From positions 1 to 48,461 of the forward strand of contig JAJRYY010000031.1 of assembly GCA_024275565.1 (NCBI GenBank): a stretch of 48,461 bases of DNA, read 5' to 3'. The notes beneath the pieces were generated by a model, which did no database searches, was not told the DNA's origin, and saw only the letters and a program-made list of their open reading frames with translations. Below, in pieces: positions 1,020 through 30,373 of this stretch. The stretch is from Planctomycetota bacterium. GTDB taxonomy: Bacteria; Planctomycetota; Phycisphaerae; UBA1845. Position 1 is the first letter of the stretch. Every line of letters starts with the position of its first letter. The translations under genes were made by a program, and so were the position numbers.

Positions 1020-1075
1020 AGTAAGCAGGTTCTCGATTGGTTGTTGATAATCATGGATCACAACTGGAGCGTGTT

Positions 1076-4227: not shown

Positions 4228-5391
4228 ATGAGCAATGAGTCACATAGCCATTCAGATCGCCGTCGGAATCTGGGTTTGCGCGAGAAACGCGATCGACAGA
4301 ATCGTCCGGCTGAAGTCGATATTTCGATTGTCATTCCGCTTAAAAATGAAGAGGACAATGTCGCTCCGCTGCACGAAGAGATTTGCGAAGCGATGGCGGC
4401 GGATGGGGCATCCTACGAGATCATATACATAGACGACGGGAGTCGCGATCGGACCCTGGAGCGCTTGCAACGGGTGACAGCCGGCGATCCGCACGCGACC
4501 GTGATCGAGCTGACGCGGTGTTTCGGGCAGACGGCTGCGTTGGCGGCCGGGTTTGAGCGAGCGCGGGGGCATGTGATCGTTCCGATGGATGGCGATCTAC
4601 AGAACGATCCTCACGATATTGCACGCGTGGTGGCGAAGCTGGATGAACCGCCGGGGTATGACGTGGTGAGCGGTTGGCGTAAGGAGCGCCAGGACAAGCT
4701 GATGTCGCGACGCATGCCGTCGGTGTTGGCCAATGGGTTGATCCGGTGGGTGACGGGTGTCCAGCTGAACGATCTCGGGTGCAGCCTGAAGGCGTATCGA
4801 CGGGAGGCGCTCGAGGACGTGGAGCTGTATGGCGAGATGCACCGGTTCCTGCCGATCATCACGCGGTGGCGGGGCGCGCGGATCACCGAAGAGGTCGTCA
4901 ACCATCGTCCGCGGATTCACGGAACGACCAAGTATGACCTTCGCAGGACGGTGAAGGTGCTGCTCGATCTCGTCACGGTGAAATTTCTCGGAGATTATCT
5001 GACGAAACCGATCTACTTTTTCGGCAAGGCGGGGTTGTTGAGTATGGCGGGGTCGTTCCTGTCGCTGGGGATCGCGGGGTTTCAGAAATTTGGATATCTG
5101 TCGTCGGCGGGTCCTGTAAATCTGAATCGCAATGTACTCGTGACGTTCTCGGTGATGTTGTTTCTGCTGACGGTGTTGTTCATCATGATGGGCGTGATCT
5201 CTGAGTTGCTCGTTCGGATTTACCACGAAAGTCAGGGGCGTCGGATTTACAAAATCCGCAGCATTCAGGAGGGGACGGGGGCGTCATCGGGGGGGCAGCG
5301 TGATCCGAAGGGTGAAGAGGGTAATTCGGGTTGTACTGATACAATGACAGGCAAAGCGGATTGCTCCTCCGCAGAACGCGAAAAGGTTTGA
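4228..5391 (+). CDS. GT2 family glycosyltransferase, polyprenyl-phosphate sugar transferase type
   Basis: A 387-residue family-2 glycosyltransferase of the DPM1/GtrB kind, which moves a sugar from an activated nucleotide donor to a polyprenyl phosphate at the inner membrane. Visible motifs: the N-terminal SIVIPLKNEEDNV strand, the nucleotide-binding DDGS, the metal-binding DGDLQND, and LGCSLKAYRR. Two C-terminal membrane helices follow (about residues 265-285 and 305-335), as is usual in this family. The start at 4228 is favoured because GAGAG at 4217-4221 is 6 bases away; the ATG at 4222 abuts it. It is the first gene of the long glycan cluster, and its stop overlaps the ATG of the next gene (TGATG). 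Confidence 0.9.
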   Translation: MSNESHSHSDRRRNLGLREKRDRQNRPAEVDISIVIPLKNEEDNVAPLHEEICEAMAADGASYEIIYIDDGSRDRTLERLQRVTAGDPHATVIELTRCFGQTAALAAGFERARGHVIVPMDGDLQNDPHDIARVVAKLDEPPGYDVVSGWRKERQDKLMSRRMPSVLANGLIRWVTGVQLNDLGCSLKAYRREALEDVELYGEMHRFLPIITRWRGARITEEVVNHRPRIHGTTKYDLRRTVKVLLDLVTVKFLGDYLTKPIYFFGKAGLLSMAGSFLSLGIAGFQKFGYLSSAGPVNLNRNVLVTFSVMLFLLTVLFIMMGVISELLVRIYHESQGRRIYKIRSIQEGTGASSGGQRDPKGEEGNSGCTDTMTGKADCSSAEREKV

Positions 5392-6644
5392 TGAAGTCCA
5401 AACGCATTCTCATGATCTCACCCCAGCCAATCTTCGAACCCCGGGGTACGCCGTTCAGCGTGGTGTATCGCTGCCGGGCGTTGTGTCGGATGGGGCATCG
5501 GGTGGATCTCTTGACCTATCCCTATGGTCGCGACGTGCAGATCGACGGTTTGCGGATCGTGCGTGTTCCGAAGCTCCCTGGCGTTGAGGGCGTTCCGATT
5601 GGCCCGTCCATCCCGAAGATATTTCTGGACGTGATGCTCGTTGGCTGGATGATCGTGATGATGTTTCGTCGTCGGTACGATTTGATCTGGTCGCACGAGG
5701 AGGCTGGTACGTTTGGGGGTGTTGCCTCGCGACTGACCGGAATCCCACACATATATGATATGCACTCGGACCTGTCGCAGCAGATCGAAAATTATGATCG
5801 ATTTTCCGGCAAGGCAGCCATCTGGATATTTTCAGCCATCACGCGCGTGATGATTCATTTCAGCGATGTGGTGCTGACGATTTGCGATGATCTGGTGGAG
5901 GCTGTACACGCCATCGCTCCGCGTAAACGCGTCATGCTCGTGGAGAATTATTGCACAGAGGTCGATTTTCTGGACGACAAGGCGCCGAGCGTCTCTGAAC
6001 TCCGCAAGCACCACAATGTGAACGGGGATCCCGTAGCGCTGTACATCGGGTCGCTGGAACCCTACCAGGGGATCGACATTCTTATCGGAGCTGCGGACTA
6101 TCTGAAAGAGCAAAATGTGCCCTGTCGTCTGCTGATTGTCGGCGGACGCTCGGAGCAGATCGAAGCATTGAAGGCCGAGGTGAAACGTCGATCGCTTGGG
6201 CAATTCATAGACATCGTCGGTGCTGTCTCGCCGGTGGTTGTGGAATCGTATGTGGACATGTGCGATATGCTGCTGACCGCCAGGTCCAAGGGTACGAATA
6301 CGCCGCTGAAGATCTACAGTTATATGAAGAGTGGCAAACCGATCGTTGCGACGAATATTTACAGTCACACGCAGATTCTCAACGATGCCAACGCCATGCT
6401 CGTCAATCCGGAGGGTGTGGCGTTTGGGAAGGGTATTGAGCGGATGGTGGTCGATCGCCCGTATGCTTCCGCACTTGCAGATCAAGCCCAGGAGGAAGCC
6501 GGCGCGTTTTCCAACGAGATATTCGAAGCCAACATCGCCGAAGCGGTTGCCCTGGCGATGTCAGGTGGTTCGCGAGAGTCAGGTGGTTCGCGAGAGTCAG
6601 GCGGTTCGCGAGATGAGGCGGGCTCCGAATGTGCGGCATTGTAG
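5391..6644 (+). CDS. GT4-type glycosyltransferase
   Basis: A 417-residue GT-B fold glycosyltransferase. The N-terminal acceptor domain begins KRILMISPQPIFEPRGTPFS, and the C-terminal donor domain has VALYIGSLEPYQGIDILI and KIYSYMKSGKPIVATN, typical of the glycosyl transferases group 1 domain. The ATG at 5391 overlaps the previous stop by one base, with AAAAGG just upstream, implying translational coupling; a longer in-frame start at 5361 would overlap the GT2 gene. The last residues are an in-frame triple repeat (GGSRES unit) absent from the family, so the tail is probably disordered. It overlaps the next gene by 16 bases. Confidence 0.9.
   Translation: MKSKRILMISPQPIFEPRGTPFSVVYRCRALCRMGHRVDLLTYPYGRDVQIDGLRIVRVPKLPGVEGVPIGPSIPKIFLDVMLVGWMIVMMFRRRYDLIWSHEEAGTFGGVASRLTGIPHIYDMHSDLSQQIENYDRFSGKAAIWIFSAITRVMIHFSDVVLTICDDLVEAVHAIAPRKRVMLVENYCTEVDFLDDKAPSVSELRKHHNVNGDPVALYIGSLEPYQGIDILIGAADYLKEQNVPCRLLIVGGRSEQIEALKAEVKRRSLGQFIDIVGAVSPVVVESYVDMCDMLLTARSKGTNTPLKIYSYMKSGKPIVATNIYSHTQILNDANAMLVNPEGVAFGKGIERMVVDRPYASALADQAQEEAGAFSNEIFEANIAEAVALAMSGGSRESGGSRESGGSRDEAGSECAAL
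6561..6614 (+). repeat. Three 18-bp tandem units in the GT4 3' end
   Basis: Three consecutive copies of TCAGGTGGTTCGCGAGAG, the third with two changes. They keep frame and encode the SGGSRE tail of the glycosyltransferase. Confidence 0.9.
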
Positions 6645-8560
6645 GTCAGATTTCCCGCAATGGGTCGCGGTTGGACCCGGACCGCACACGTCGAGCGGTC
6701 TGTGCGATGCATCATCGCGGTCCGGACGAATCCGGATTCTGGAGCGGACCGGGTGTTGAACTGGGCATGTGTCGTCTCGCAATCATCGCGCCGGAAGGCA
6801 ACCATCAACCCGCCCGCGACGAAGACGGTGACGTCCGCGTGGTTTTCAACGGTCAGATCTACAACCATCCTGAATTGCGCCGCGAGCTGGAATCGCTGGG
6901 GTACCGCTTCAGAACAGACGGCGATTCCGAGGTCATTGTCCACGCATACAGGGAGTGGGGGACCGATGCGTTCGCGCGGATGAATGGTATGTTCGCGATC
7001 GCCATTTACGACGCTCGTGACGGTGGATCGCTGATCCTCGTGCGTGATCGTATGGGCATCAAACCGCTCTACTATCAGCTTACGGGCGACCGGCTCACCT
7101 TCGCGTCTGAGGTCAAATCGCTCCGTGCCATGATCGACGAAACGCCTGGCGTCAATGCGGAGGGCGTGTTGTCGCTCCTGACGTTTGAGTACATCTATGC
7201 ACCACACACACTGTTTCATGGAGTTCTGAAACTCGAACCGGGCATGTTTCTCCGCGTATCTGATCGTGATGTGACGCAGGAATCGTACTGGACGATGCCG
7301 ACAACCTTACGCCAGATCACCGAAGCAGAAGCGTGCTCCGAGTTGCGTCAACTTATGTCCGATGCGGTTCGGGGGCGCATGATCAGCGACGTTCCACTTG
7401 GAGCATTTCTATCTGGCGGAATCGATTCGAGCATCATCGTCGCCCTCATGACCGAACACACCGACCGCCCCGTGAAAACATTTTCGGTCGCCTTTGAGGA
7501 TGCGTCCTACAATGAAAGTCACTTCGCACGCATGGTGGCAGACAGGTATAAAACCGAGCACCATGAAATCAAGCTCCAGGTTGACATGAGCGAGATGATG
7601 AAACCGATCGACCTCATTCTCGACGATCCGATCGGTGATTTTTCCGTGTTCTCGACCTATCTTGTGAGTCGCGCTGCCCGCGAGCACGTCACGGTCGTCC
7701 TCTCCGGCGACGGCGGCGACGAGCTGTTCGGCGGTTACGATGCATACCTGGCCGACAAGCTGAGTCGTACATATGCACTACTGGGCCCCGCCATCACGCA
7801 GCACCTGGCGCCCGCCATTCTCGATCGAATCCGTCCTTCACGAGCGAAAAAGGGTCTTGTCAATCGTCTGAAAGTGTTCGCACGCGGTGCAGCTCGACCA
7901 GCTGACCTTGGCCATGCCCGCTGGATGATCTTCATGGATGACGCGACACGTGGGGCGATCTTGACGGACGACTTCGCTGCCAGCACATCTGCCGTCGATC
8001 CCACAAATCATATTCGACGACTGACGGGTGACTGCCACGCCCTGGACACCATGTCGAAAGATATGTATGTCGATTCACGGTTCTATCTCCCGGACAATAT
8101 CTTACACAAGGTCGACCGCACCAGCATGGCGGTTTCGCTGGAAACCCGCGTCCCGTTTCTGGATCACCGCGTCGTGGAGTTGGCCTTGACGATGCCCATA
8201 TCCTATCGCATTCGAGGGGTCCAACGTAAAGCCATCCTCAAAAACGCCTTCCGCGACCTCCTCCCCGAGACCATCATCAAGCGTGGCAAGCAGGGTTTCA
8301 GCACGCCCATGAAGCATTGGCTCCGCAGCGATCTCAAGGAACTGATGCTCGACACGCTTGCGGAATCGCGCCTGAAGCGAGATGGTTTTTTCCGCCCGTC
8401 AGCCGTGCAAAGACTCATCACCCAGCACCTCGACGAACGCGCAGACCATGCCCATCTGCTCTGGTCGATGGTCCTCTTCGGTCTATGGCATGACCGGTAT
8501 CAGGGCGGTAAATCTGGCGTATCCCATACAGGTTCAGTGCAGGAGGTTGTCGCATCATGA
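6629..8560 (+). CDS. asnB: Asparagine synthase (glutamine-hydrolysing) family amidotransferase
   Basis: A 643-residue class II glutamine amidotransferase fused to an asparagine-synthase ATP-pyrophosphatase domain. Cys2 of MCGIVGQ is the glutaminase nucleophile, MHHRGPDESG is the conserved glutaminase loop, and SGGIDSS (residues 262-268) is the PPi loop binding ATP. Such enzymes make asparagine, but within glycan clusters they often amidate a sugar acid or other cluster-specific acid. The location between glycosyltransferases and a methyltransferase favours the second role. A family of exosortase-associated amidotransferases is known, and an exosortase lies 22 kb away. The start overlaps the GT4 gene, and the stop overlaps the methyltransferase start (ATGA). 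Confidence 0.9.
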   Translation: MCGIVGQISRNGSRLDPDRTRRAVCAMHHRGPDESGFWSGPGVELGMCRLAIIAPEGNHQPARDEDGDVRVVFNGQIYNHPELRRELESLGYRFRTDGDSEVIVHAYREWGTDAFARMNGMFAIAIYDARDGGSLILVRDRMGIKPLYYQLTGDRLTFASEVKSLRAMIDETPGVNAEGVLSLLTFEYIYAPHTLFHGVLKLEPGMFLRVSDRDVTQESYWTMPTTLRQITEAEACSELRQLMSDAVRGRMISDVPLGAFLSGGIDSSIIVALMTEHTDRPVKTFSVAFEDASYNESHFARMVADRYKTEHHEIKLQVDMSEMMKPIDLILDDPIGDFSVFSTYLVSRAAREHVTVVLSGDGGDELFGGYDAYLADKLSRTYALLGPAITQHLAPAILDRIRPSRAKKGLVNRLKVFARGAARPADLGHARWMIFMDDATRGAILTDDFAASTSAVDPTNHIRRLTGDCHALDTMSKDMYVDSRFYLPDNILHKVDRTSMAVSLETRVPFLDHRVVELALTMPISYRIRGVQRKAILKNAFRDLLPETIIKRGKQGFSTPMKHWLRSDLKELMLDTLAESRLKRDGFFRPSAVQRLITQHLDERADHAHLLWSMVLFGLWHDRYQGGKSGVSHTGSVQEVVAS

Positions 8561-9393
8561 TCGAAACACACACTGAAACTTTGCGAGATGACGCGAATTC
8601 CGAGGACTGTACTGCATTCGGTGAGTCCATCGACGGAATCGCGAAGTATTGGAACGAGCACATCCACGACCTCGCCATCGCCACCCACCCGGTCGGTTCG
8701 CTCGGATTTTTCGACGAGTTGGATGCCTATCGCTTCGACAAACTCCGCTACCTTCCCAATCTGGTAGATTTTTCCGGATTCGCCGAAAAGCGACTACTGG
8801 AAGTTGGCTGCGGCGCTGCGATCGACCTCGTTCGGTTCGCGAAGGGAGGCGCGGTCGTCACTGGCATCGACCTGGCAGCCACCTCCATCGAGCTTGCAGA
8901 AAAAAACCTCGCACTGCGAAACCTGGAAGGAGATTTCCAGGTCATGAACGGCGAAAATATGGACTTTCCGGACGCATCGTTCGACGTCGTATACGCCCAC
9001 GGCGTCCTGCAATACACCTCAAACCCCGCGAAAATGATGCAGGAAATCCACCGCGTCCTCAAACCGGGCGGCCAGGTAATCTCGATGGTCTACAACACGC
9101 GATCATGGTTGAAACTCATGTCGATCGCAATGGGCGTCGCCCTGGAACACGAAGATGCACCCTTCATCCGTACCTTCACACACCACCAGTTCGCCGAACT
9201 CTTCGCACCATTCGGAAATCACCGAATCGTCCCCGAGCGTTTCCCAGTCCCCACAAAACTCCACACAGGACTCAAAGCAATTCTCTACAACAACGTCTTC
9301 GTCGGCGCCTTCAACATCCTCCCACGATTCATGACACGCTGGTCGGGATGGCACCTGATGGGGTTCGCAACAAAACGGGAGACAGGGCGATAA
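8557..9393 (+). CDS. SAM-dependent class I methyltransferase
   Basis: A 278-residue methyltransferase of the type-11/UbiE-like group. Motif I is LLEVGCGAAIDL (about residue 86), followed by the acidic ribose-binding GIDLA, then DASFDVVYAHGVLQY and LKPGGQVISMVYN. It would methylate an intermediate of the glycan or lipid product. It shares an ATGA overlap with the upstream amidotransferase, which implies coupled translation. The C-terminal 80 residues may hold the substrate-specific part. Third-position C dominates its codons, unlike the glycosyltransferases upstream. Confidence 0.88.
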   Translation: MIETHTETLRDDANSEDCTAFGESIDGIAKYWNEHIHDLAIATHPVGSLGFFDELDAYRFDKLRYLPNLVDFSGFAEKRLLEVGCGAAIDLVRFAKGGAVVTGIDLAATSIELAEKNLALRNLEGDFQVMNGENMDFPDASFDVVYAHGVLQYTSNPAKMMQEIHRVLKPGGQVISMVYNTRSWLKLMSIAMGVALEHEDAPFIRTFTHHQFAELFAPFGNHRIVPERFPVPTKLHTGLKAILYNNVFVGAFNILPRFMTRWSGWHLMGFATKRETGR

Positions 9394-9409
9394 TGCTCGC
9401 TTCGACCCA

Positions 9410-11224
9410 ATGACGCGCGATCTCTCAAAACTCTCAGACCGTGAATTCGACATACTCATCGTCGGCGCGGGCATCAACGGCGCATGTGTCGCAAGAGACG
9501 CTGCACGGCGCGGATTGTCCGTAGCAATCATCGATCGCGCTGACATCGGTTCGACCACATCATTCAACAGCCTGCGCACCGTCCACGGCGGTCTGCGATA
9601 CCTCCAGCATCTCGATTTCAAACGGATGCGCGAATCCATCCGCGAACGAACAAACTGGTTACGCATCGCCCCACACCTAGTTCACCCACTCCCTTTTATG
9701 GCAGCCACAACGCAAAAAATATCGCGCACCAAAACCGCATTTCGCGTCGCTTTCGCCATCAACGACAGCATCGGGTTCGACCGAAATCGCGATCTGGACA
9801 TCGCACACCGCATCCCCGGCGGGCGAATTCTAAGCAGTATTGAAGCACGAAAACACTATCCCGGTTCAGACGCAAAGGATATCACCGGCGGAGCAGTCTG
9901 GTACGACGCACAGATGTACGACTCCGAGCGACTCGTCCTCGCGGTGTTGAACGACGCTGTGGCAAGCGGCGCAACCATCGCCAACTACACCTCGGTCGAT
10001 CACCTGATCGTCTCCGAAAATCGCGTGATCGGTGCGGTTGCGACAGACACCATCGACGGCGGCGAATATAATATCAAAGCAAAGCTCACCATCATCACAG
10101 CCGGTCCATTGGTAGACAAACTCCTGAACACCACCATCCAGCGCACCCGCAAAAGCAAACCCCTCCGCCTGTCCAAAGCGATGAATATCCTCACCAGACG
10201 CATCGCCGGAAACCACGCCGTCGGCGTCCCAAGTCAATACCACGACCCCAATGCAGCCATGGACCACGGAACCCGACTCCTCTTCATCACCCCCTGGCGA
10301 GACCTCTCCCTCATCGGCACCACGCACGTCCCCTTCGACGGAAAACCCCAAGACTTCCGCATCACAACCAGCGACGTTCAGCAGTTCGTCAACGAAATCA
10401 ACGCAGCATGCCCAGAAGCAAACCTCACGCTCGACGATGTAAAATTCGTCTTCGCCGGTTTGCTGCCAGCGGGCGATCCCAGACCCGGTGATACAGAAAC
10501 CCGCCTCCTCCAGCACCACCGCATCGTCGACCACGAATCCGAGGACAACTTAAAGGGAATCATCAGCCTCACCGGCGTCAAATATACCACGGCGCGGCTG
10601 GCGGCGGAGCAGGTCACCGATCTCGCATGCACGCGCCTCGGAATCGCACATCGAAAATGCGACACCGCCATCGAACCCCTCTCACGCGGAGACATCGGGA
10701 GCACAGAACGCATCACAAGAAGCATAACCGAACGCTGGGGAGATCGTCTTCCAGAGGAAACGATCTTGAGAATGGTCCGATTGTACGGTGGCGAAACCGA
10801 GCGAATGCTCGAAGGCATCGGCGCGGACGCTGACGAAAAGGATGGCGTCGTCAACAAGGAAGATCTCCTCAAGGCACAAATCCGCTTCGCCATCAAGGAG
10901 GAATACGCTGTCAGGCTGAGCGATATCGTGTATCGCCGAGCAGACCTGGCAGCACGAGGAACCCCGGACGATGACATCCTGGAATTGGCTGCTAAACTCA
11001 TGGGCAGTGAACTGGGCTGGAACGTAGAACGTAGAATCGCCGAAATCGACGACGTCCGAAAAACCGCATCCGCATGGCGATCACCCGAGGGGATGTCACC
11101 ACTCAGACAGGAAAAAATCGTCCGCCCCGAGTGTCAGAAAGACCCACTGCAAGGTCCGAAAAACACCAGTCTCAAGCCAAACACCTGCAACGCCGAGTTA
11201 TCCACCAGACAGGAACCAATCTAA
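9410..11224 (+). CDS. glpD: FAD-dependent glycerol-3-phosphate dehydrogenase family protein
   Basis: A 604-residue flavoprotein of the GlpD/GlpO family. The FAD-binding ILIVGAGINGACVARDAARR glycine motif comes near the N-terminus, followed by the family sequence RTVHGGLRYLQ and a C-terminal alpha-helical DAO_C domain (about 400-550). Family members oxidise sn-glycerol-3-phosphate to dihydroxyacetone phosphate at the membrane. No glycerol kinase or facilitator is nearby. Its place inside a glycan/acyl cluster suggests either a supply role or oxidation of a glycerol-like substituent; that is inference. The last 45 residues are polar and not typical of the family. The stop TAA at 11222-11224 abuts the next ATG with no gap. 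Confidence 0.85.
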   Translation: MTRDLSKLSDREFDILIVGAGINGACVARDAARRGLSVAIIDRADIGSTTSFNSLRTVHGGLRYLQHLDFKRMRESIRERTNWLRIAPHLVHPLPFMAATTQKISRTKTAFRVAFAINDSIGFDRNRDLDIAHRIPGGRILSSIEARKHYPGSDAKDITGGAVWYDAQMYDSERLVLAVLNDAVASGATIANYTSVDHLIVSENRVIGAVATDTIDGGEYNIKAKLTIITAGPLVDKLLNTTIQRTRKSKPLRLSKAMNILTRRIAGNHAVGVPSQYHDPNAAMDHGTRLLFITPWRDLSLIGTTHVPFDGKPQDFRITTSDVQQFVNEINAACPEANLTLDDVKFVFAGLLPAGDPRPGDTETRLLQHHRIVDHESEDNLKGIISLTGVKYTTARLAAEQVTDLACTRLGIAHRKCDTAIEPLSRGDIGSTERITRSITERWGDRLPEETILRMVRLYGGETERMLEGIGADADEKDGVVNKEDLLKAQIRFAIKEEYAVRLSDIVYRRADLAARGTPDDDILELAAKLMGSELGWNVERRIAEIDDVRKTASAWRSPEGMSPLRQEKIVRPECQKDPLQGPKNTSLKPNTCNAELSTRQEPI

Positions 11225-12214
11225 ATGAAACCAACATCACTGGTAACCGGCGCGAATGGCTATACGGGCATGATGCTAAGCCAATACCTCGCAAAGAAGG
11301 GCATCCCGACGCGGGGCATGTACTACGCGCCCGATGGTGCGCCCGATTTCTCCCACGAAAACCTCGAACTCGTCCCGGGCGATGTCCGCGATCGCAAAAG
11401 CGTCGAGCAGGCGATGGAGGGCATCACGACAGTCTATCATCTCGCCGCTCTATACCGACCGGTCAATGTCCGCAGACACGACTATCGCGACGTCAACATC
11501 ACTGGCACGAAGAATGTTCTGGAAATCGCAGCCGCCGCAAAAGTAGAACGCTTCGTCCATTGCAGCACGATCGGCGTCCACGGACACGTCGAAAACCCGC
11601 CAGCCGGCGAAGACGCACCCATCAAACCAGACGATTACTATCAGGAAACGAAATACGAGGGCGAAATCCTCGCGCGAGAATATGGCCCGGAGCTGGGACT
11701 CAAGGTCTCAGTCATAAGACCAGCCGCCATCTACGGTCCCGGTGAAAAGCGCTTCCTCAAGCTCGCACAACTGATCCAGCAGAGGCGTTTCTGGATGTTC
11801 GGAAGCGGAGACATCCTCTACCACTTCATCAACATCGACGACCTCTGCGATGCGTTTGTGCTGTGTGCGACGAAGGAGGAAGCAATCGGAAACGTCTACA
11901 TCATCGCCGACGACCATGCCATCAAACTGAACGACATTCTTCGCATATTTGGCGACGCCGTCGGAACGCCACCACCGAAAATGCGCTGGCCACTGAGCTT
12001 GTTGATGGGCGTGTCAACGGTGGTCGAGTTTGCGTGCAAACCCTTCAAAATTCCGCCACCACTGCATCGTCGGCGCGCGGAATGGTTCTGGTCGATACGC
12101 TCCTTCGACATATCCGCAGCACGCCGCGATATCGGGTACGATCCGAAAATGGCGATCGAGGACGGACTTACGAAAATGATTCAGTCCTACCGGGAGGCAG
12201 GCTGGATCAAATAA
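11225..12214 (+). CDS. NAD-dependent epimerase/dehydratase (extended SDR)
   Basis: A 329-residue extended short-chain dehydrogenase. The Rossmann motif is TGANGYTG at residues 7-14, followed by the acidic GDVRD strand. The catalytic set is Ser in HCSTIGVHG and YxxxK in YYQETKYEGE, followed by RPAAIYGPGE as in nucleotide-sugar epimerases and dehydratases. It probably alters a nucleotide-sugar or a sugar-like lipid headgroup; the exact substrate cannot be read from sequence. It starts immediately after the glpD stop, so both are surely in one transcript. A palindromic repeat separates it from the next gene. Confidence 0.88.
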   Translation: MKPTSLVTGANGYTGMMLSQYLAKKGIPTRGMYYAPDGAPDFSHENLELVPGDVRDRKSVEQAMEGITTVYHLAALYRPVNVRRHDYRDVNITGTKNVLEIAAAAKVERFVHCSTIGVHGHVENPPAGEDAPIKPDDYYQETKYEGEILAREYGPELGLKVSVIRPAAIYGPGEKRFLKLAQLIQQRRFWMFGSGDILYHFINIDDLCDAFVLCATKEEAIGNVYIIADDHAIKLNDILRIFGDAVGTPPPKMRWPLSLLMGVSTVVEFACKPFKIPPPLHRRRAEWFWSIRSFDISAARRDIGYDPKMAIEDGLTKMIQSYREAGWIK

Positions 12215-12219
12215 CGACC

Positions 12220-12264
12220 CCCGCTGATGGGCAGCGGGACTCTGTAGGGCGGGTTTCACCCACC
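12220..12264. repeat. Two short palindromes between epimerase and second asnB
   Basis: A perfect 7-bp hairpin (CCCGCTG/CAGCGGG, 12220-12238) is followed by a GTAGGGCGGGT...ACCCACC palindrome (12244-12264). No T-run follows either, so they need not stop transcription of the cluster. Confidence 0.55.
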
Positions 12265-12280
12265 GCAATGGACATGCAAC

Positions 12281-14293
12281 ATGTGCGGCATATGCGGAAA
12301 AATCGGAACGCAAAAAGCAGACATCGACCAGGTGCGTCGGATGGGCAGTGTCCTGCACCATCGCGGTCCCGACGATGAAGGTTATTACGCAAAGGGACCA
12401 GCCGCCCTCGGGCATCGTCGCCTGAGCATCATCGATCTGGACGCCGGACGCCAGCCGATCGCCAATGAGGACGAAACGGTCTGGATCGTATTCAACGGTG
12501 AAATATACAACTTCCAGGTGTTGCGATCTGACCTGATTTCCAGGGGGCATCGCTTTCGCACACACACCGACACCGAGGTCATTGTCCACCTCTACGAAGA
12601 ATACGGCGAAAAATGCGTCGATCGACTCTCCGGCATGTTCGCTTTCGCCATCTGGGACGAAACGAAAAAACGCCTCTTCATCGCCCGTGACCGCTGCGGC
12701 CAGAAACCCCTGTTCTACTACCACAAGGGTGGCGATTTTCTGTTCGCCTCGGAATTGAAAGGCCTGATCGCATCAGGCGACGTTCAGCGCGACATCGATT
12801 TTGAATCCGTCCATCACTACCTCTCGCTCCGATTCATCCCCTCGCCCCACACGATGCTCAAAGGTGTCCGAAAGCTGCAACCGGGACATTGGCTCTCCTT
12901 TGAACATGGCAAAGTGACAATTCAAAAATATTGGGGCATCACATTCCGCAACCAGCTCCAGCTCGGCGAGGATGAATATATTGATCGTTTGCGAGACAGC
13001 ATGACACGGGCAGTCACCTCGCATCTCATGAGCGATGTACCCGTGGGCGCTTTCCTCAGCGGCGGCATGGATTCGAGCATGATCGTCGCATTGATGGCTG
13101 GCACTCAATCCGATCCCTTCAAAACCTTCTGCGTCGGAGTCGAGCAAAACGATTTCAACGAGCAACCCTACGCCCGGGAAGTCGCCGAATACCACAAAAC
13201 CGATCACGTCGAGGAGATGGTTCGCCCCGACCTGATCGCGCTGCTACCCAAAATGATCTACCACCTCGACGAACCGTCCGATCCGATCGCTGCCTGCATG
13301 TTCCATTCCTCACGACTGGCCTCACGACATGTCAAAGTCGTGCTCGGCGGCGACGGCGGCGATGAACTCTTCGCCGGATTCGATCGTTACCGTGGTGTCG
13401 GGCTGATCGATTACTACGCCATCATCCCGACCCTCATCCGCCGGGCTGTGCTCGGTCCGATCATCGACATCATCCCCGACAGTTTCACTTACAAAAGCGT
13501 CGCGCAAAAAATGCGCTGGGTGCACCAACTCTCAGCCCTCCCCACCAAAGCAGAACGATACGCCGAAGCCACCGCCTTCTTCCGCTTCAACCACGCCGGA
13601 AAACAGCAGATTTTCGGCGACGACATCTGGCGCAATATCTGCGCGTTGCAATCCTCGGATATTATTACAAAACCTTACAACGAAGCCGAGGCAGACAACC
13701 CCATCGACCGAATGCTCTACGCCGATTTCCAGACCCGCCTCCCCGAGCACACCCTCATGCTCACAGACCGCATGAGCATGGCCCACAGCCTCGAAGCACG
13801 ATCGCCATTCCTGGACCACGAACTCGTCGAACTCCTCGCCGCTTTTCCGAGTCGGGTCAAAATTCGTGGGAAACAGCTCAAATACATCCTCCGCAAGCTG
13901 GCTGAGGGGTATTTACCCCCATCCATCACGCGCCGCGACAAGCAGGGCTTCATGTTTCCCGTCGCGTACTGGTTTCGTAACGAATTGTATGAATTTCTGA
14001 AAAAATTCCTCAGTGAGTCGAAAATTGTCACGGATGGCATGTTCAAGCGGGAGGCAGTCCTGGGGTTGATCGAGGAGCATCGCCGGAACAAAATCGACAA
14101 TCACGTCCGAATATGGATGCTGCTCAATCTGGAAATCTGGCGACGGATGTATGTCGATGGCAACGACCTGGATACCATGGCAGAGGATATCGACCGCTGC
14201 CGACGCGACAGCATGGGAAGCGCTGGTGGTTCTGGAAGCTCCGGGAGCTCTGTTCACAGCGTGAAGCCGGAACCCGTACTCGACGCTTGTTAA
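12281..14293 (+). CDS. asnB: Second asparagine synthase family amidotransferase
   Basis: A 670-residue protein with the same layout as the first: MCGICGKIG with catalytic Cys2, LHHRGPDDEG in the glutaminase domain, and SGGMDSS (260-266) as the ATP PPi loop. LGGDGGDELFAGFDRY and the C-terminal SITRRDKQGFMFPV region are typical of asparagine synthases. The two copies differ throughout, so this is not a recent duplication and they may act on different acids. The last 45 residues are Gly/Ser-rich (GSAGGSGSSGSS) and look like a linker. It ends 15 bases before the acyltransferase gene. Confidence 0.9.
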   Translation: MCGICGKIGTQKADIDQVRRMGSVLHHRGPDDEGYYAKGPAALGHRRLSIIDLDAGRQPIANEDETVWIVFNGEIYNFQVLRSDLISRGHRFRTHTDTEVIVHLYEEYGEKCVDRLSGMFAFAIWDETKKRLFIARDRCGQKPLFYYHKGGDFLFASELKGLIASGDVQRDIDFESVHHYLSLRFIPSPHTMLKGVRKLQPGHWLSFEHGKVTIQKYWGITFRNQLQLGEDEYIDRLRDSMTRAVTSHLMSDVPVGAFLSGGMDSSMIVALMAGTQSDPFKTFCVGVEQNDFNEQPYAREVAEYHKTDHVEEMVRPDLIALLPKMIYHLDEPSDPIAACMFHSSRLASRHVKVVLGGDGGDELFAGFDRYRGVGLIDYYAIIPTLIRRAVLGPIIDIIPDSFTYKSVAQKMRWVHQLSALPTKAERYAEATAFFRFNHAGKQQIFGDDIWRNICALQSSDIITKPYNEAEADNPIDRMLYADFQTRLPEHTLMLTDRMSMAHSLEARSPFLDHELVELLAAFPSRVKIRGKQLKYILRKLAEGYLPPSITRRDKQGFMFPVAYWFRNELYEFLKKFLSESKIVTDGMFKREAVLGLIEEHRRNKIDNHVRIWMLLNLEIWRRMYVDGNDLDTMAEDIDRCRRDSMGSAGGSGSSGSSVHSVKPEPVLDAC

Positions 14294-14308: not shown

Positions 14309-15082
14309 ATGGCACGCAAGGAAGTTCACGCCAATATCACCGATGAATCTACCTCTGCCCTGAAGCGGTATCAGCAGGTGGTGGTTGGGTCCGATAGCCT
14401 CTGGTTTACGATCAAATTCGAGCTTCTCACTACGTTTCTAGGGATTTTACCCGGCGCTGTTGGGCTGGTCCTGCGGAAGAAATTCTATCGCAAGCTGTTC
14501 AAACGCGTGGGCCGGGGGGTCATCTTCGGGACGAATGTCGTGATTCGTCATCCGCAGAAGATCGAGATCGACGACGGTGCGGTGATCTCCGATGGGTGCG
14601 TGCTGGATGCTGGGGGTGGGCAGGCGAGGGATCACGATTTATTGATCGGGAAGGGGGTTATTCTCGGTCAGAATACGATGCTCCGGTGCAAGGGGGGATC
14701 GATTCATATTGGCGAGAATGTTGGGTTTGGGGCGAATTGTGCTGTGTATGCTGGTGAGGGGAATACGATCGACATCGGCGTGAATGGGCTGATTGCGCCG
14801 TATGTCTACATTGGGAGCGGTCGGTATCATTTCGATCGCACGGACATCCCCATCGTCGAGCAGGGGCCTGCTCCGCTGGGGGGGTGTCGGATTGGGGATG
14901 GGGTGTGGCTGGGTTTGCGGGCGACGGTGATCGACGGGGCGGATATTGGGCGGGATGCGATCGTGTCGGCTGGTTCGGTTGTGACCGAGACGTTGCCGCC
15001 GTTTTGCATAGCAGCTGGCTCCCCATCGCGGGTCATTCGCTATCGTGAGGATACAGCCACGGACGCTCCAGTATTTGCTTAG
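14309..15082 (+). CDS. Left-handed beta-helix (hexapeptide repeat) acyltransferase
   Basis: A 257-residue protein with an N-terminal membrane-associating stretch (about 30-60) and many hexapeptide turns (GVILGQ, SIHIGE, GFGANC, TIDIGV, GLIAPYVYIGS, IGDGVWLG, IGRDAIVSAGSVV). These build a left-handed parallel beta-helix. The family transfers acetyl or longer acyl groups from CoA or ACP to sugars. YHFDR may supply the catalytic His, as in CysE/WbbJ-like enzymes. AGGAAG upstream of the ATG is a usable ribosome-binding site. Codon use becomes G/T-rich partway through, unlike the C-rich gene before it. Confidence 0.88.
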   Translation: MARKEVHANITDESTSALKRYQQVVVGSDSLWFTIKFELLTTFLGILPGAVGLVLRKKFYRKLFKRVGRGVIFGTNVVIRHPQKIEIDDGAVISDGCVLDAGGGQARDHDLLIGKGVILGQNTMLRCKGGSIHIGENVGFGANCAVYAGEGNTIDIGVNGLIAPYVYIGSGRYHFDRTDIPIVEQGPAPLGGCRIGDGVWLGLRATVIDGADIGRDAIVSAGSVVTETLPPFCIAAGSPSRVIRYREDTATDAPVFA

Positions 15083-15094
15083 TGTCCCTTTTAG

Positions 15095-15156
15095 CAGGTG
15101 GTGCGTCCGAGACGCACCCTACGCTGGCAGGTGGTGCGTCTGAGACGCACCTACAG
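15095..15156. repeat. Two palindromic units with GGTGCGTC/GACGCACC arms
   Basis: Each unit has a perfect 8-bp stem with a 3-base loop (15100-15118 and 15133-15151), and the units are 33 bp apart. The sequence between LbH stop and E1 start is almost entirely these repeats. A longer E1 reading frame through them (from GTG 15082) would add a repetitive ASETH peptide that is probably not native. Confidence 0.85.
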
Positions 15157-15177
15157 GACTTCAGATTGGTGTTGTTG

Positions 15178-17174
15178 ATGAGCGGGACGGTTAAGAACGA
15201 TATTTCGATTGATCTCTGGACGCAGGCGATGCTGATTCGCTCTGTGGAGCAGAGGCTGCTTGATCTGTTCGCTGAGGGGAAGCTGTTCGGGACTGTTCAC
15301 ACCTGCATCGGTCAGGAGTGGGTTGGCGTTGCCATCTCCGAGTTTCTGGAAGATGGCGATCTGGTGTTCAGCAATCATCGGTGTCATGGTCATTTTCTCG
15401 CGCGGACGGGGAATGTTGCGGGTCTTGTGGCGGAGATTATGGGGAAGGAGACGGGGATTTGTGGGGGTCGGGGGGCAGTCAGCATATCTGCTCGGAGGGT
15501 TTTTTCAGCAACGGGATTCAGGGGAGCATCGTGCCGGTGTCTGCCGGGATGGCGATGGGGCAGAAACTTGATGGGCAGGTGAGTGATGGTGGGCTGGGGC
15601 GGATCACGGTGGTGTATGTGGGGGATGGGACGCTGGGTGAGGGTGCTTTGTATGAGGCGTTGAATATTGCGTCGAAGTGGGAATTGCCGCTGCTCGTCGT
15701 TGTGGAGAACAATGGGTACGCCCAGAGCACGTCGCAGGATCAGACGCTGGCGGGTGATATTTGTAAGCGTGCGGAAGCTTTTGGGATCGAGACGGATCAG
15801 AGCGACACCTGGCGTCCGGAGCATTTATTGGATGCTGCTTCGCGGGCGGTTCGATATGTGCGTGAGACGTGTAAGCCATATTTTCTCAGGGTCGATACGT
15901 TTCGGTTGATGGCGCATTCCAAGGGTGATGACGATCGTGATCTGGAGATGGTGAAGGGGTACTGGGACCGCGATCCGATTGAGTTGTTTCGCAGTGAGCG
16001 ATCGGAGGAGGCTGAGCGTATTCTGGCGGGGGTGACTCGGACGATTGCTGATGCGGTTGCGCTTGCTGATGGGGCTGCTTATACGCAGGCTGTGTCGGTG
16101 GATGATGATGTACCTGACTATCGCCCGATGCAGTGGTCTGCGACGGAGATCGAGACAAACGATCGTGTTGCGAATCGGATTCATGGTGCCTTGCGGGGGA
16201 TTTTGGAGCGGGACGATCGCGTTCTATTGATGGGGGAGGATATCGAGGGTCCGTATGGTGGGGCGTTCAAGATTACGAAGAATCTTCAGGCTGAGTTTCC
16301 TGGTCGTGTTCGGAATACGCCGATCAGCGAATCTGCCATAGTAGGGATTGGTACGGGTCTTGCGTTGACGGGTAAGCGTCCGATTTGTGAGATTATGTTT
16401 GGCGATTTTCTGGCGCTGGCTGCGGATCAGTTGCTGAACTCTGCCTCGAAATTTCGCTATATGTACAACGATCAGGTTTCGGTACCGCTGGTGATTCGCA
16501 CGCCCATGGGCGGAAAACGTGGGTATGGTCCGACGCACAGTCAGTCGATTGAGAAGCATTTTCTGGGTATTCCGGGTACGCGGATGCTGGCGATTCATCA
16601 TCGCTATGATCCTGCGCTTGTGTACGATCACCTGCTTGACAGCGTGGATCGGCCTACGATTGTGATCGAAAACAAATTGTTGTATGCGATGCGTGTTTCG
16701 TCGCAGACGCCGGATGGGTTTTGCCTGGAACATAGCGACGAGCCGTTTCCGACGACGCGAATTCGCCCTGAGGGACGACCCGATGTGACTGTTTTGTGCT
16801 ATGGGGGAATGTTGGCGGATGTTGAGCGTGCGGTTGAAACACTGTTTGAATCGCATGATATGATCTGCGAGATTGTCTGCCCGATGCAGTTGTATCCGCT
16901 GAACCCCTGGCCTGTCATTGAATCTGTGCGGAAGTGTGGGCGGTTGCTGGTGGTTGAGGAGGGTGTCGGGTTTGCTGCCTTTGGGGCTGAGGTGGTTGCG
17001 CAGATGCTTGAGAGTGACCCGGGCGTGTTGAGAATGCTGCGTCGGGTTGGATCGCCAAGGCATCCGATTCCGAGTTGCGGGCCGCTGGAAAAGGCGTTAC
17101 TGCCAGGGGCAGCGCATGTGATAGAAGCTGCTGTAGATATGCTGGACGGTGAGGATGGAGTCGGGGAATCATGA
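15178..17174 (+). CDS. 2-oxoacid dehydrogenase E1, alpha-beta fusion, with apparent frameshift
   Basis: Thiamine-diphosphate-dependent E1 that decarboxylates a 2-oxo acid and acylates the lipoyl group of E2. The alpha part starts at about ATG 15178 (LWTQAMLIRSVEQRLLDLF). It carries GDG...ENN for ThDP-Mg binding (GDGTLGEG to VVENN). The beta part follows in one chain (RVLLMGEDIEGPYGG, SESAIVGIGTGLAL). The reading frame breaks at a run of six G (15470-15475). One more G would restore the canonical RGGSQH and give about 665 residues. Without it the product ends at 15582. This may be a homopolymer sequencing error, a real mutation or recoding. The 3' end overlaps the E2 start by four bases. Confidence 0.85.
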
Positions 17175-18493
17175 GCAACGTGATGCCGGTGTTGATACCG
17201 CGTGAGAATGTCAACGACGAGTCCGTGACGCTTGTGTCGTGGTTGGTGAAGGATGGCGATCAGGTTTCAAGTGGTCAGGATCTGGCTGAGGTTGAGGGGA
17301 GTAAATCCGTTTTTGAGATCGCCGCGCCGCAGGATGGGTATGTGCGGGTTTCGCGGAGGGTCGGGGATGAGATTGATGTCGGGACAGTGCTGTGCCATAT
17401 CTGTGACACTGCTGATGCTGAGATTTCGGATACGGTCGCAGATGATTCGGTTGCTGGCGATCCGGTGGTTGGGAATGGTGCATCCGGAGCTGCTCGGTTC
17501 AGCAGGAAAGCTCTGCAACTCCTTTCAGAACATGGACTTAGCGAGAAAGTGTTTGAGGGGCGTGGGCTTGTGCGTTCGGGTGATATTCTCGAACATATCG
17601 GTCAATCTCCGCCTCAGTCAATCGCGTCACCAGCTTCATCTTCCGCAGTGACGGCGCATGTTTCGCCGGTTGTTCCTGCGTTGGACGTGCCCTTCAAAAC
17701 CGAGCGTCTCTCCCGTCAGAAACGTACGGAGGCGAGGTACATTGCTTCTGCCTACCACAACACGCTGCAGAGTGCGGTGACGGTTGCGATCCCGACGAGC
17801 GGATTGCGGGCTGCGGCTGATTTGCATCCGTACCTTCAGGGAAATACGACGGCTGTCATTGTTTATGAGGCTGCTCGACTGCTCCGGAAGTATCCCGCGT
17901 TCAATGCGTTTCATTCTGATGGGACTGTGAATACATACGAGCATGTCAACATTGGCGTTGCGATCGATGCTGGTCAGAGCTTGAAAGTGCCCGTGATTCG
18001 TGGTGCTGACACGAAGTCGATATCGGAAATCGCTGACGAACTCCGTGAATCGCTCGTCGCCTACCTCAACGATGAGATGTCTCCCGAATCGCTGGCGGGC
18101 GGGACATTTACGATTTCGGACCTCTCGGCTGAGGGTGTTTATACGTTTCATCCGCTGATCAATCAGGGGCAGTCTGGCATACTCGGGATTGGTGCGGAAT
18201 TCTTCCCGCCGGGGAGTGGAGAAGGTACATTTCAACTCGTACTTACATTCGATCACCAGGTGGCTGAGGGTCGGCTGGCTGCTCAGTTTCTGGGTGATCT
18301 GCGAGGTCGGCTTGAGGCGTATGAATCTGCGATTGGTCAATCGGTCGGTGCGGTGCAAGACGAAGAACCCTATTGCTCGCGATGTCTCACGCCGATCGGT
18401 CGTCTCCGCGATATGAACCAGTATCTTGTGCAGGTCGTGAAACCGGATGGTTCGCCCGGGCATCTCTGCACGGTATGTTTGCAGGGATGGTAG
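17171..18493 (+). CDS. 2-oxoacid dehydrogenase E2-like acyltransferase with C-terminal zinc ribbon
   Basis: A 440-residue protein with three familiar E2 parts. The lipoyl domain (about 1-80) has Lys45 in EVEGSKSVFEIAAP as the lipoylation site. A peripheral-subunit-binding segment (ARFSRKALQLLSEHG) follows at about 110-150, then the catalytic domain (from about 175) ending LTFDHQVAEG. The usual HxxxDG active-site motif here reads H362-QVA-E366-G, with Asp replaced by Glu. GTFTISDLSAEG is conserved. The extra C-terminal 40 residues have CxxC pairs (402/405 and 433/436), a likely zinc ribbon that ordinary E2 proteins lack. ATGA overlap with E1. No E3 gene is in the window. Confidence 0.85.
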   Translation: MSNVMPVLIPRENVNDESVTLVSWLVKDGDQVSSGQDLAEVEGSKSVFEIAAPQDGYVRVSRRVGDEIDVGTVLCHICDTADAEISDTVADDSVAGDPVVGNGASGAARFSRKALQLLSEHGLSEKVFEGRGLVRSGDILEHIGQSPPQSIASPASSSAVTAHVSPVVPALDVPFKTERLSRQKRTEARYIASAYHNTLQSAVTVAIPTSGLRAAADLHPYLQGNTTAVIVYEAARLLRKYPAFNAFHSDGTVNTYEHVNIGVAIDAGQSLKVPVIRGADTKSISEIADELRESLVAYLNDEMSPESLAGGTFTISDLSAEGVYTFHPLINQGQSGILGIGAEFFPPGSGEGTFQLVLTFDHQVAEGRLAAQFLGDLRGRLEAYESAIGQSVGAVQDEEPYCSRCLTPIGRLRDMNQYLVQVVKPDGSPGHLCTVCLQGW

Positions 18494-18544
18494 TGCATGG
18501 TGATGCTCACGATTAGGTATTACAGACTACAGGAATAGCCCCAA

Positions 18545-19402
18545 ATGGATCAACAGACATTGCTGCGAAACACCGTGGCAGAATTTTTTGAGACCGATCC
18601 GAGTGCGATGACGCCGGATTTTCCGCTGGGTGGCAAGAGATTGTCTGGATCGCTGGCGCGTGCGACGCTGGATGCTGCCATCCGCCGTCGTCTTGGTGTG
18701 AAGTCGTCGGCGGTTTATTCTGCGAAATATTTTGGTGAGCTTGAATCCGCCATTCTGGGTACACCGATGTCGGATGGGTCGAATGGGCATTCTGCATCGG
18801 CACCTGTTTCGCCGTCATCGTTGCCACGGCTGAATATGCAGACTGGGGGTGGATCGTGTGGCGTTGATATTGAATGCGTCGACAATCTCCCGTCCGCGAA
18901 CGACCCTTGGGAGGATCCGTTTTACAAGCAAACTTTTGCCCCGGCTGAGATTGCGTATTGCATCACTCAGGACAATCCCAACCAACATTTCGCTGCGCGA
19001 TGGGCTGCCAAGGAGGCGCTTAAAAAGTGCGACGCTGCCTTTCTCACCGAGGAAATGTCCGATATTGAAGTGGTGGTTGACGCATCCGGCGCACCGTCTC
19101 TGCATATACATCGCGGTGATGATTCCATGAAATTACCACATGCAGTGAGTATGTCGCACACGCCTGACATGGCAGTTGCGGTCGTTGTACACAACAGCAT
19201 GACTGTCTCGACAACGCAAACCGATGCACCTGTGGAACGTGTCAAAGCGCCTGTGGAACGTGTCAAAAGTGTTTCCCGGGAGATCAAACATTCGGAGATG
19301 AGTAGGGAAGCGGGAGGAGCGTCCGGAACGAGATTTGTCCCGATGGTCATAGCCATTGTTGCCCTGGTGCTGGCCACCTGGTCGCTGGTGAGATCATTCT
19401 AG
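18545..19402 (+). CDS. Acyl carrier protein - phosphopantetheinyl transferase fusion with membrane anchor
   Basis: A 285-residue three-part protein. Residues 1-72 resemble an acyl carrier protein; Ser36 in LSGSLARATL is the likely phosphopantetheine site, with Gly replacing the usual Asp before it. Residues about 104-215 are an AcpS-type 4'-phosphopantetheinyl transferase: GVDIE (Asp108, Mg binding) and FAARWAAKEALKK (about 149-161). A linker carrying a 7-residue duplication (PVERVKA) leads to a C-terminal membrane helix (264-285). The layout suggests a carrier that is primed in cis and held at the membrane to present an acyl group. The neighbours E1, E2 and the LbH acyltransferase fit as donors and users. 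One base separates it from the flippase gene. Confidence 0.82.
   Translation: MDQQTLLRNTVAEFFETDPSAMTPDFPLGGKRLSGSLARATLDAAIRRRLGVKSSAVYSAKYFGELESAILGTPMSDGSNGHSASAPVSPSSLPRLNMQTGGGSCGVDIECVDNLPSANDPWEDPFYKQTFAPAEIAYCITQDNPNQHFAARWAAKEALKKCDAAFLTEEMSDIEVVVDASGAPSLHIHRGDDSMKLPHAVSMSHTPDMAVAVVVHNSMTVSTTQTDAPVERVKAPVERVKSVSREIKHSEMSREAGGASGTRFVPMVIAIVALVLATWSLVRSF
19226..19267 (+). repeat. Two 21-bp tandem units inside the ACP-PPTase linker
   Basis: Two copies, identical except for one base in the third position, encode PVERVKA in frame. They sit between the transferase domain and the membrane helix. Confidence 0.88.
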
Positions 19403-19403
19403 T

Positions 19404-20411
19404 ATGTCACATTCGGGGAGCGAAACCAGTGCGACAGAGACTCCGGACGCCACAACACTCCGACGGTCGAACAAGCACTATATGCTCATCGCCATCAAGG
19501 TAGTCGCATCGTTTGGGCTGATATTTTACCTGCTTCGCGACACCGATCTCAAGGTTATCTTTGCATCGATCACGAGCTGTCACCTCCTCCTGGTGGTGAT
19601 TGCGCTAGCGCAGAATTTTCTGGGTTTCATCGTCAGCGCCGCGCGATGGAAAATCCTGTTGAAGACGCAGGGCGTCGTAGTACCCTACATATATCTTGTA
19701 AAATCATGTATGGTCGCCCTGTTTTTCAATAATTTTCTACCCTCCACCATCGGCGGCGATGCAGTGCGTGCGTACGATTCCTGGCGATTTGGTAAAAGTA
19801 AATCAGGAGCGGTTGCCACCATCTTCGTCGATCGCTTTCTGGGGTTGTTCGCATTGCTGACCTTTGCAACGATCTCGATCCTCGCGCAGGATCAATCTGT
19901 CTCACTTGATATTCCGTTCCTTCGCGTCTGGATGGTGCTTGGTTTTTTCGGGATGATCTCGATCCTATGGCTGATTTTTCTACCACCTGCGTGGGTGGTG
20001 GGTCTCATCGAAAATCTGCACGTTCCCTTCTCCGGGAAGCTGCAATCCATCGTGCAGCGGATCGTCGGCGCGTTCATGGCGTTCAAAGGAAAAAAAGGGG
20101 CGATGCTCAGCGCGCTGTTTCTCTCATTCCTGCTCCAGACGAATGTCGTCATCCACTACTTCGTCATCGCAAAATCCATGGACCTCCCCGTCCCCTTCGC
20201 GGGCCTGTTTCTCGTAGTTCCGCTCGCGATATTCCTCATGATGATCCCCGCGTCGATCAATGGGATAGGGATCCGGGAGGCTGTCTGGGTCTATTTTCTG
20301 AGTCTTTATGGCGTTGGCAAAGAAGACGCGATTGCCTTCGTCTGGATCGCGTTTGGACTTGTATTGATACAGGGCGTGATCGGTGGCATCGTGTACGCAT
20401 TACGCAAATGA
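19404..20411 (+). CDS. YbhN/LPG-synthase-TM family membrane protein (flippase-like)
   Basis: A 335-residue polytopic membrane protein with about eight helices. The signature segments are AARWKILLKTQG, FFNNFLPSTIGGDAVRAYD, VATIFVDRFLGL and SINGIGIREAVWVYFL. This is the UPF0104/AglD-like transmembrane domain also found at the front of lysyl-phosphatidylglycerol synthase, where it is linked to moving lipids across the membrane. No synthase domain is fused. It begins one base after the ACP-PPTase stop. In this cluster it could flip a finished lipid-linked product; that is inference. Confidence 0.87.
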   Translation: MSHSGSETSATETPDATTLRRSNKHYMLIAIKVVASFGLIFYLLRDTDLKVIFASITSCHLLLVVIALAQNFLGFIVSAARWKILLKTQGVVVPYIYLVKSCMVALFFNNFLPSTIGGDAVRAYDSWRFGKSKSGAVATIFVDRFLGLFALLTFATISILAQDQSVSLDIPFLRVWMVLGFFGMISILWLIFLPPAWVVGLIENLHVPFSGKLQSIVQRIVGAFMAFKGKKGAMLSALFLSFLLQTNVVIHYFVIAKSMDLPVPFAGLFLVVPLAIFLMMIPASINGIGIREAVWVYFLSLYGVGKEDAIAFVWIAFGLVLIQGVIGGIVYALRK

Positions 20412-30346: not shown

Positions 30347-30373
30347 CCTTAGCTTCAAACGGGTTCTACGAAT

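Follow-up and report, generated by a model that had tools for sequence, protein, structure and literature searches.

A putative acyl-loading cassette of dehydrogenase-like E1 and E2 proteins and a membrane-anchored carrier protein in a planctomycete glycan cluster

Introduction

To our knowledge, the loading of a carrier protein by a pair of E1 and E2 proteins resembling those of pyruvate dehydrogenase (PDH) has so far been known only from antibiotic pathways. In quinocarcin biosynthesis, the making of a C2-glycolicacyl unit and its attachment are directed by QncN, QncL, and QncM, and for scleric acid it has been proposed that SclQ1 is the acyl carrier protein (ACP), SclQ2 and SclQ3 the E1, SclQ4 a lipoyl-acyltransferase, and SclP the phosphopantetheinyl transferase (PPTase), with a ketose phosphate, for instance xylulose 5-phosphate, as the source of glycolyl (PMC6335953). 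DinU and DinS, the homologues of NapB and NapD, have been given the same glycolyl-ACP task in dnacin (PMC7570522), and in pepteridine biosynthesis E1 and E2 have been proposed to prime a carrier directly in place of coenzyme A (CoA), with E3 coming from elsewhere (PMC5384830). The stretch of DNA considered here (the window) is the whole of one contig (JAJRYY010000031.1, C218; 48,461 nucleotides) of a genome assembly (GCA_024275565.1; 4.4 Mb, 95% complete) from a Planctomycetota bacterium, whose closest relatives are Phycisphaerae metagenome-assembled genomes (MAGs); at 14309–19402 it encodes an E1, an E2, an ACP fused to a PPTase, and a left-handed β-helix (LbH) acyltransferase.

We give a roughly even chance to the reading that these proteins form a carrier-protein acyl-loading cassette of a glycan or glycolipid cluster, with glycolyl drawn from a ketose phosphate. 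Provided that the cassette loads the ACP, glycolyl would be, with slightly better than even confidence, the acyl group in question, favoured over others because of the kinship of the E1 with glycolyl-type cassettes. An earlier note on this DNA, made from the sequence alone, had proposed that E1 and E2 pass an acyl group to the ACP instead of CoA for use by the LbH enzyme in a glycan cluster, and given the conserved gene order, the E1 clade, and the absence of a local E3, this is still the best reading. The note had taken a 2-oxo acid as the substrate; the kinship argues more for a ketose phosphate as the source of glycolyl, with 2-oxo acids, hydroxypyruvate among them, as further possible donors. 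The novelty lies in the glycan setting, in the fusion of ACP, PPTase, and membrane helix, and in the lipoyl-LbH fusions; the handover itself, regarded in the note as an undescribed pathway, is known from antibiotic pathways, having been described for glycolyl-ACP and proposed for pepteridine (PMC6335953, PMC7570522, PMC5384830).

Affiliation of the E1

The E1 gene (15178–17174, forward strand) encodes a thiamine diphosphate (ThDP)-dependent alpha-beta protein of 665 aa if read across a frameshift, with Pfam matches to E1_dh, Transket_pyr, and Transketolase_C. In a tree of 36 taxa, with ultrafast bootstrap (UFB) values as support, this E1 groups with RenH and with ACP-E1alpha-E1beta-E2 cassettes of actinobacteria (Streptomyces, Nonomuraea, and S. 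cattleya) at UFB 99, and all other E1s, including those of the PDH and branched-chain keto acid dehydrogenase (BCKDH) types, lie on the opposite side (UFB 100). RenH was also the best match in a plasmid search (48% identity over 94%), in which degradative and PDH-type E1s reached 32–40%. Glutamines at Q115 and Q183 (window numbering), together with T152 and G154, were found in 25 of 25 clade E1s, while 23 non-clade E1s carry Thr, Val, or Ile at the first site and mostly Met, Glu, or Ile at the second. The two glutamines align with V138 and M200 of human PDHA1, which we take to be positions in contact with the thiamine pyrophosphate (TPP) cofactor, and they may create a more polar substrate pocket that would fit a hydroxylated donor.

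The alternative that fares best, unlikely as we consider it, keeps the handover to the ACP and changes the acyl group: E1 would decarboxylate a 2-oxo acid, such as pyruvate, hydroxypyruvate, 2-oxobutyrate, or a sugar-derived one, to give acetyl-, hydroxyacyl-, or another acyl-ACP. Both the architecture and the catalytic histidines of the window E1 are those of 2-oxo-acid E1s, and carrier priming from alpha-keto acids has been suggested for pepteridine and BCKDH-type systems (PMC5384830). However, the clade and the two glutamines set this E1 apart from the 23 ordinary ones, and a dedicated system for acetyl would presumably be costly where acetyl-CoA is already available.

The ACP-PPTase-membrane protein

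The gene at 18545–19402 (forward strand) encodes an ACP domain (residues 1–72), an AcpS-type PPTase (104–217; Pfam ACPS, 49.7 bits), and a C-terminal membrane helix (about 264–284; hydropathy 2.5 at 264–282). The ACP domain found no match in Pfam. In its structural model, helices span residues 3–14, 36–50, 55–58, and 63–71, and Ser36 opens the second of them, as in ACPs; this serine is invariant, and a weakly positive profile comparison (E 0.004, probability 8.5) aligned it with the phosphopantetheine serine. Model, serine, and profile speak for a dedicated ACP with its 4'-phosphopantetheine serine. The PPTase part matches the PPT domain of a fungal fatty acid synthase (2wat; Foldseek, E 8e-9), and the earlier notion of a carrier protein fused to its own activating enzyme is supported by the ACPS match on one side and by model, serine, and profile on the other.

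Conservation of the cassette

With the window proteins as queries, the order GT2-GT4-AsnB1-methyltransferase-GlpD-epimerase-LbH-E1-E2-ACP/PPTase-YbhN was recovered in two MAGs, both of another genus, namely G033 (Phycisphaerae OFTM371) and G003 (IP29b_bin.25), with identities of 47–75% for most genes and 28–30% for YbhN. The refuting case named in the earlier note, an order that relatives do not keep, thus does not apply. E2 orthologues were present in only 3 of 114 genomes of the order, those of the window, G033, and G003, scoring 837–968 bits against at most 150 elsewhere. The core of E1, E2, and ACP/PPTase occurs in eight loci, belonging to the three Phycisphaerae and five further genomes. 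In the planctomycete SZAS-5 (L071) the three proteins are 58, 42, and 45% identical to those of the window and are encoded beside sugar-nucleotide and glycosyltransferase genes. In Polynucleobacter UK-Gri1-W3 (L072), where identities to the window are 42, 30, and 32%, the surroundings resemble an O-antigen locus: as read from the sequence, they include two LbH genes, genes of CDP-glucose type, and a Wzx-like flippase. A search of the class added cassettes in G530, G555, and G578 (family f110). Predictions of the C-terminal membrane helix of the ACP-PPTase are positive for the window, G033, and Polynucleobacter, borderline for G003, and negative for SZAS-5.

In family f5, eight genomes carry an E1 of the clade, which was solitary in all six that were inspected. 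The E2s inspected in four f5 genomes (L029, L031, L032, and L033) lay on a contig other than that of the E1, with an adjoining ACP gene in three (none was called in L033) and an acyltransferase-like gene nearby in two. In G284 (L109, 8233–13467), E1 and E2 are followed by a carrier-sulfotransferase-thioesterase-like protein, resembling a small nonribosomal peptide synthetase (NRPS)-like assembly that uses the same type of E1 and E2.

The LbH acyltransferase and a proposed link to sugars

The gene upstream of the E1 (14309–15082, forward strand) encodes a WcaF/WbbJ-like hexapeptide acyltransferase (Pfam Hexapep, 41.6 bits; NCBIfam WcaF family, 69.8 bits, below cut-off). It directly adjoins the cassette in the three Phycisphaerae, its orthologues in G033 and G003 being 61% identical and at the same place, and in SZAS-5 an LbH gene with a broken open reading frame (ORF) lies directly downstream of the cassette. 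In four genomes, Eisenbacteria (L073), G720 (L144), G708 (L147), and G682 (L152), a clade E1 is followed by one ORF in which a lipoyl domain is fused to an LbH acyltransferase, without an E2 core. The LbH part of the G682 fusion is PglD/NeuD-like, and its locus (733–12442) is of nonulosonate type by sequence reading, with NeuB-, SpsF-, and PseG-like genes, which hints that a nonulosonic acid carries a special N- or O-acyl group; the E1 of this locus has a weakly supported position in the tree and carries the signature residues. Lipoyl-LbH fusions behind the same E1 hint at the acylation of sugars, and they suggest that the E1 product is consumed by LbH enzymes acting on sugars, perhaps with the lipoyl domain as direct donor. 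Searches of the open-access literature gave nothing relevant on glycan-associated glycolyl-ACP sets or on lipoyl-LbH fusions.

Carried further, this thought becomes a second alternative, which we regard as improbable: the lipoyl domain itself would be the acyl donor, LbH enzymes drawing the acyl group straight from dihydrolipoyl, and the E2 core and ACP of the window would be a variant or a side branch. The fusions directly behind clade E1s in four genomes, one of them in the nonulosonate-type locus, argue for it, as do those near another E1 clade (L119 and L120), but it leaves without a role the E2 core and the ACP/PPTase, which have been kept in the window and in seven other loci. The fusions near that different clade (L119, 8485–9906, in G222; L120, 2282–4006, in G476), one of which includes an E3-binding domain, have in common a C-terminal HPRTWxYxGGWL motif.

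The E2 and the presumed source of E3

The E2-like protein (17171–18493, forward strand) comprises a lipoyl domain (Lys45), a linker, a 2-oxoacid_dh acyltransferase core, and a C-terminal CxxC...CxxC...QGW segment, as identified by Pfam, alignment, and an AlphaFold2 model. In the model, three short helices at 112–142 of the linker form a stub that may correspond to a peripheral-subunit-binding domain. Foldseek matches the model to E2 cores, the lowest E value against a solved one being 5e-20, and the protein retains both the E2 fold and the catalytic His. Two C-terminal CxxC pairs, with GW, GY, or GH after them, were seen in the E2s of all eight E1-E2-PPTase cassettes. The HxxxD motif reads HQVAEG in the window, an Asp-to-Glu change, while the Asp is kept in the cassette E2s of SZAS-5, G530, and G578 and replaced by N or T in biosynthetic E2s. 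Of the features that could make this an altered E2, as the earlier note called it, the CxxC pairs therefore hold throughout the group and the HxxxD change does not. The latter was also rejected as a signature of ACP use, the Asp being present in three cassettes; the title of PDB entry 1dpc mentions Asn at residue 614 of the Azotobacter E2. As a stand-alone marker the E2 is unsuitable, since many ordinary E2s match it at 28–32% identity. When plasmids were searched with E2, RenI was the best-covered match, and among the other matches listed none covered the CxxC part along with the rest.

When the PDH E3 of the source genome was used as a tblastn query, E3 was found neither in the window nor in any of 27 loci of the E1 clade (519 kb), and in eight of eight ordinary E1/E2 loci. 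The earlier observation that no E3 is seen holds for the window and extends to these clade loci, in which a dedicated E3 did not come to light. The source genome has one true E3, adjoining the PDH E2, and the simplest reading is that this enzyme would reoxidise the dihydrolipoyl group in trans. The only other Pyr_redox_dim protein of this genome (on C173) was discarded as a candidate, as it looks SthA-like by its N-terminal motif and lacks the CxxxxC pair. An ordinary dehydrogenase complex that makes acyl-CoA and shares the PDH E3 would agree with the retained His and fold of the E2 and with the usable E3 in the genome, but three things make it very improbable: the ACP/PPTase of its own that the operon carries, as do eight loci in all, the want of E3 in 27 clade loci, and the E1 clade.

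The frameshift in the E1

The E1 is split in the window into two frames (15082–15582 and 15318–17174), which join at six consecutive G (15470–15475, forward strand); one base is missing, as the continuity GGRG/GSQH needs seven. The three relatives each have a single intact E1 ORF of about 650–680 aa, to which the repaired protein is 58–67% identical. Because these relatives have no long G-run at the site, the frameshift is most simply read as an error of assembly or sequencing, probably at the homopolymer, with a real mutation as the alternative. The E1 alpha-beta fusion of the earlier note is accordingly intact in the relatives and divided in the window contig. That the module is decaying, with a real frameshift and a cassette disused in this strain, is hardly credible in spite of the frameshift itself, since no interruption affects the downstream E1 frame, the E2, or the ACP, all three are conserved in another genus as well, and a shift within a G-run absent from relatives is typical of sequencing error.

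Proposed mechanism and its weight

We infer the acyl group, the acceptor sugar, every reaction, and the supply of E3 in trans as follows. The ThDP-bearing E1 would take a C2 unit from a ketose phosphate, for example xylulose 5-phosphate, or, less likely, from hydroxypyruvate, and would reductively acylate the E2 lipoyl lysine, the product being most likely glycolyl-dihydrolipoyl. The E2 core would then load the ACP at the 4'-phosphopantetheine of Ser36, which the fused AcpS-type PPTase would have installed, and the C-terminal helix would keep the ACP at the membrane. From there, the LbH enzyme would transfer the acyl group to a sugar, at a hydroxyl or an amino function, while that sugar is assembled by the glycosyltransferases of the cluster, while the housekeeping PDH E3 would reoxidise the dihydrolipoyl group.

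Several observations weigh against this scheme. The E1 is frameshifted in the window contig, and members of an E1 clade can change substrate. The ACP domain, besides lacking a Pfam match, has a degenerate DSL motif, and the ACP part is unrecognisable in the Polynucleobacter protein. E3_binding (PF02817) was not detected by Pfam scan in the cassette E2s. The best matches of the LbH protein are the WcaF/WbbJ acetyltransferase families, all far below cut-off, whose members use acetyl-CoA, and the cassettes of G530 and G578 lie outside any obvious glycan cluster. Finally, the tie to a proven glycolyl-forming E1 runs through RenH and the SclQ1-4-like order and sizes rather than through NapB, QncN, or SclQ sequences, and the function of RenH in renieramycin biosynthesis, on which the tie leans, is presumed.

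A wider proposal, which we hold only tentatively, is that bacteria decorate glycans via glycolyl-type E1/E2/ACP cassettes, which would draw the acyl group from ketose phosphates, and, in relatives, via lipoyl-LbH fusions supplied by the same E1 and acting as sugar acyl donors free of CoA and ACP. We know of no described glycan acyltransferase that uses an S-acyl-dihydrolipoyl protein as its donor. If the cassette works as proposed, the ketose phosphates of central carbon metabolism would be tied directly to the acylation of surface glycans, and a third donor route to sugars would stand beside acyl-CoA and fatty acyl-ACP. The glutamines Q115 and Q183 of the E1, the two CxxC pairs of the E2, and the lipoyl-LbH fusions would then serve as a signature to locate such glycans in Planctomycetota, Polynucleobacter, and others.

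The surrounding gene cluster

All genes of the cluster point in the same direction, on the forward strand. A GT2 glycosyltransferase with a C-terminal membrane part (4222–5391; 72–75% identity to relatives) is followed by a GT4 glycosyltransferase (5361–6644; 61–63%), a first AsnB-type amidotransferase (6629–8560; 62–65%), an S-adenosylmethionine-dependent methyltransferase (8557–9393; 64%), a GlpD-like FAD oxidoreductase (9410–11224; 52–53%), and an NAD-dependent epimerase/dehydratase (11225–12214; 66–72%), all of them conserved members. A second AsnB-type amidotransferase (12281–14293), recognised by its domain matches, is peculiar to the window, the clusters of the relatives having no counterpart. 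The LbH, E1, E2, and ACP-PPTase genes come next, and a YbhN-like, flippase-like membrane protein (19404–20411; LPG_synthase_TM, Pfam 137.8 bits; TIGR00374, 69.8 bits) closes the row. The LbH gene is separated by 95 bp from the E1 start codon (ATG at 15178), E1 and E2 overlap by 4 bp (ATGA at 17171–17174), and gaps of 51 bp and 1 bp separate the ACP-PPTase gene from E2 and the YbhN-like gene, respectively. Pfam and NCBIfam scans confirm the LbH, E2, ACP-AcpS, and YbhN-like genes of the earlier note, all co-directional and with an AsnB-type amidotransferase upstream. No NRPS domain was found among the scanned neighbour genes, which encode LbH, glycosyltransferase, and AsnB proteins instead. An XrtA/PEP-CTERM exopolysaccharide cluster was considered and rejected, the amidotransferases scoring 593 and 572 bits against a TIGR03108 cut-off of 817.

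Between LbH and E1, two near-identical palindromes (GGTGCGTCYGAGACGCACC) lie 33 bp apart at 15100–15118 and 15133–15151; none is expected by chance, and the window has no further copy. About 9 kb downstream of the cluster, at 29654–31273, there are EpsI-like and exosortase-like genes by sequence reading. Short in-frame amino acid repeats (RESGGS, EHGSG, and PVREN) occur within ordinary proteins at about 6590–6640, 38170–38210, and 43450–43500.

Comparison with known systems

The glycolyl-ACP cassettes (QncN/L/M, SclQ1-4 with SclP, NapB/C/D of naphthyridinomycin, and DinU/T/S of dnacin) share with the window a ThDP-dependent E1, a lipoyl-acyltransferase, an ACP, and a PPTase, and the cassette of Streptomyces NBC_01136, whose E1 falls in the clade, resembles SclQ1-4 in gene order and protein sizes, the likeness being one of organisation and size only. 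In contrast to these cassettes, the window has glycan genes and no NRPS acceptor, a fused E1 alpha and beta, an ACP joined to the PPTase and a membrane helix, and an E2 with two C-terminal CxxC pairs. RenH, from the renieramycin pathway of Ca. Endohaliclona renieramycinifaciens, likewise joins E1 alpha and beta in one chain and shares 48% identity with the E1 of SZAS-5, and RenI is a lipoyl-E2 core protein like the window E2. They differ in belonging to an NRPS pathway, in the lack of CxxC in RenI, in a motif reading HRVLTG rather than HQVAEG, and in that no ACP-PPTase fusion was seen there. In pepteridine biosynthesis, the E1 and E2-T-C proteins (plu2792-2799) have been proposed to prime the carrier in place of CoA with E3 elsewhere, as we propose for the window, but they start from alpha-keto acids, serve an NRPS condensation to a pterin, and have the carrier fused to the E2 (PMC5384830).

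PDH and BCKDH share with the window the fold, the lipoyl lysine, and the catalytic residues of E1 and of the E2 core; the window departs from them in that its locus lacks an E3 and includes an ACP/PPTase, and in that its E1 has Gln at two TPP-contact positions. Tetronate biosynthesis, with E2s acting on glyceryl-derived substrates, had been put forward as the model for the handover and was set aside, because sets of E1, ACP, and PPTase fit glycolyl cassettes better. By the plasmid search and the E1 tree, the closer kin of the window are the glycolyl-type cassettes and RenH/RenI, and, if the proposed reading is right, the antibiotic glycolyl cassettes and the glycan cassettes may have a common ancestor.

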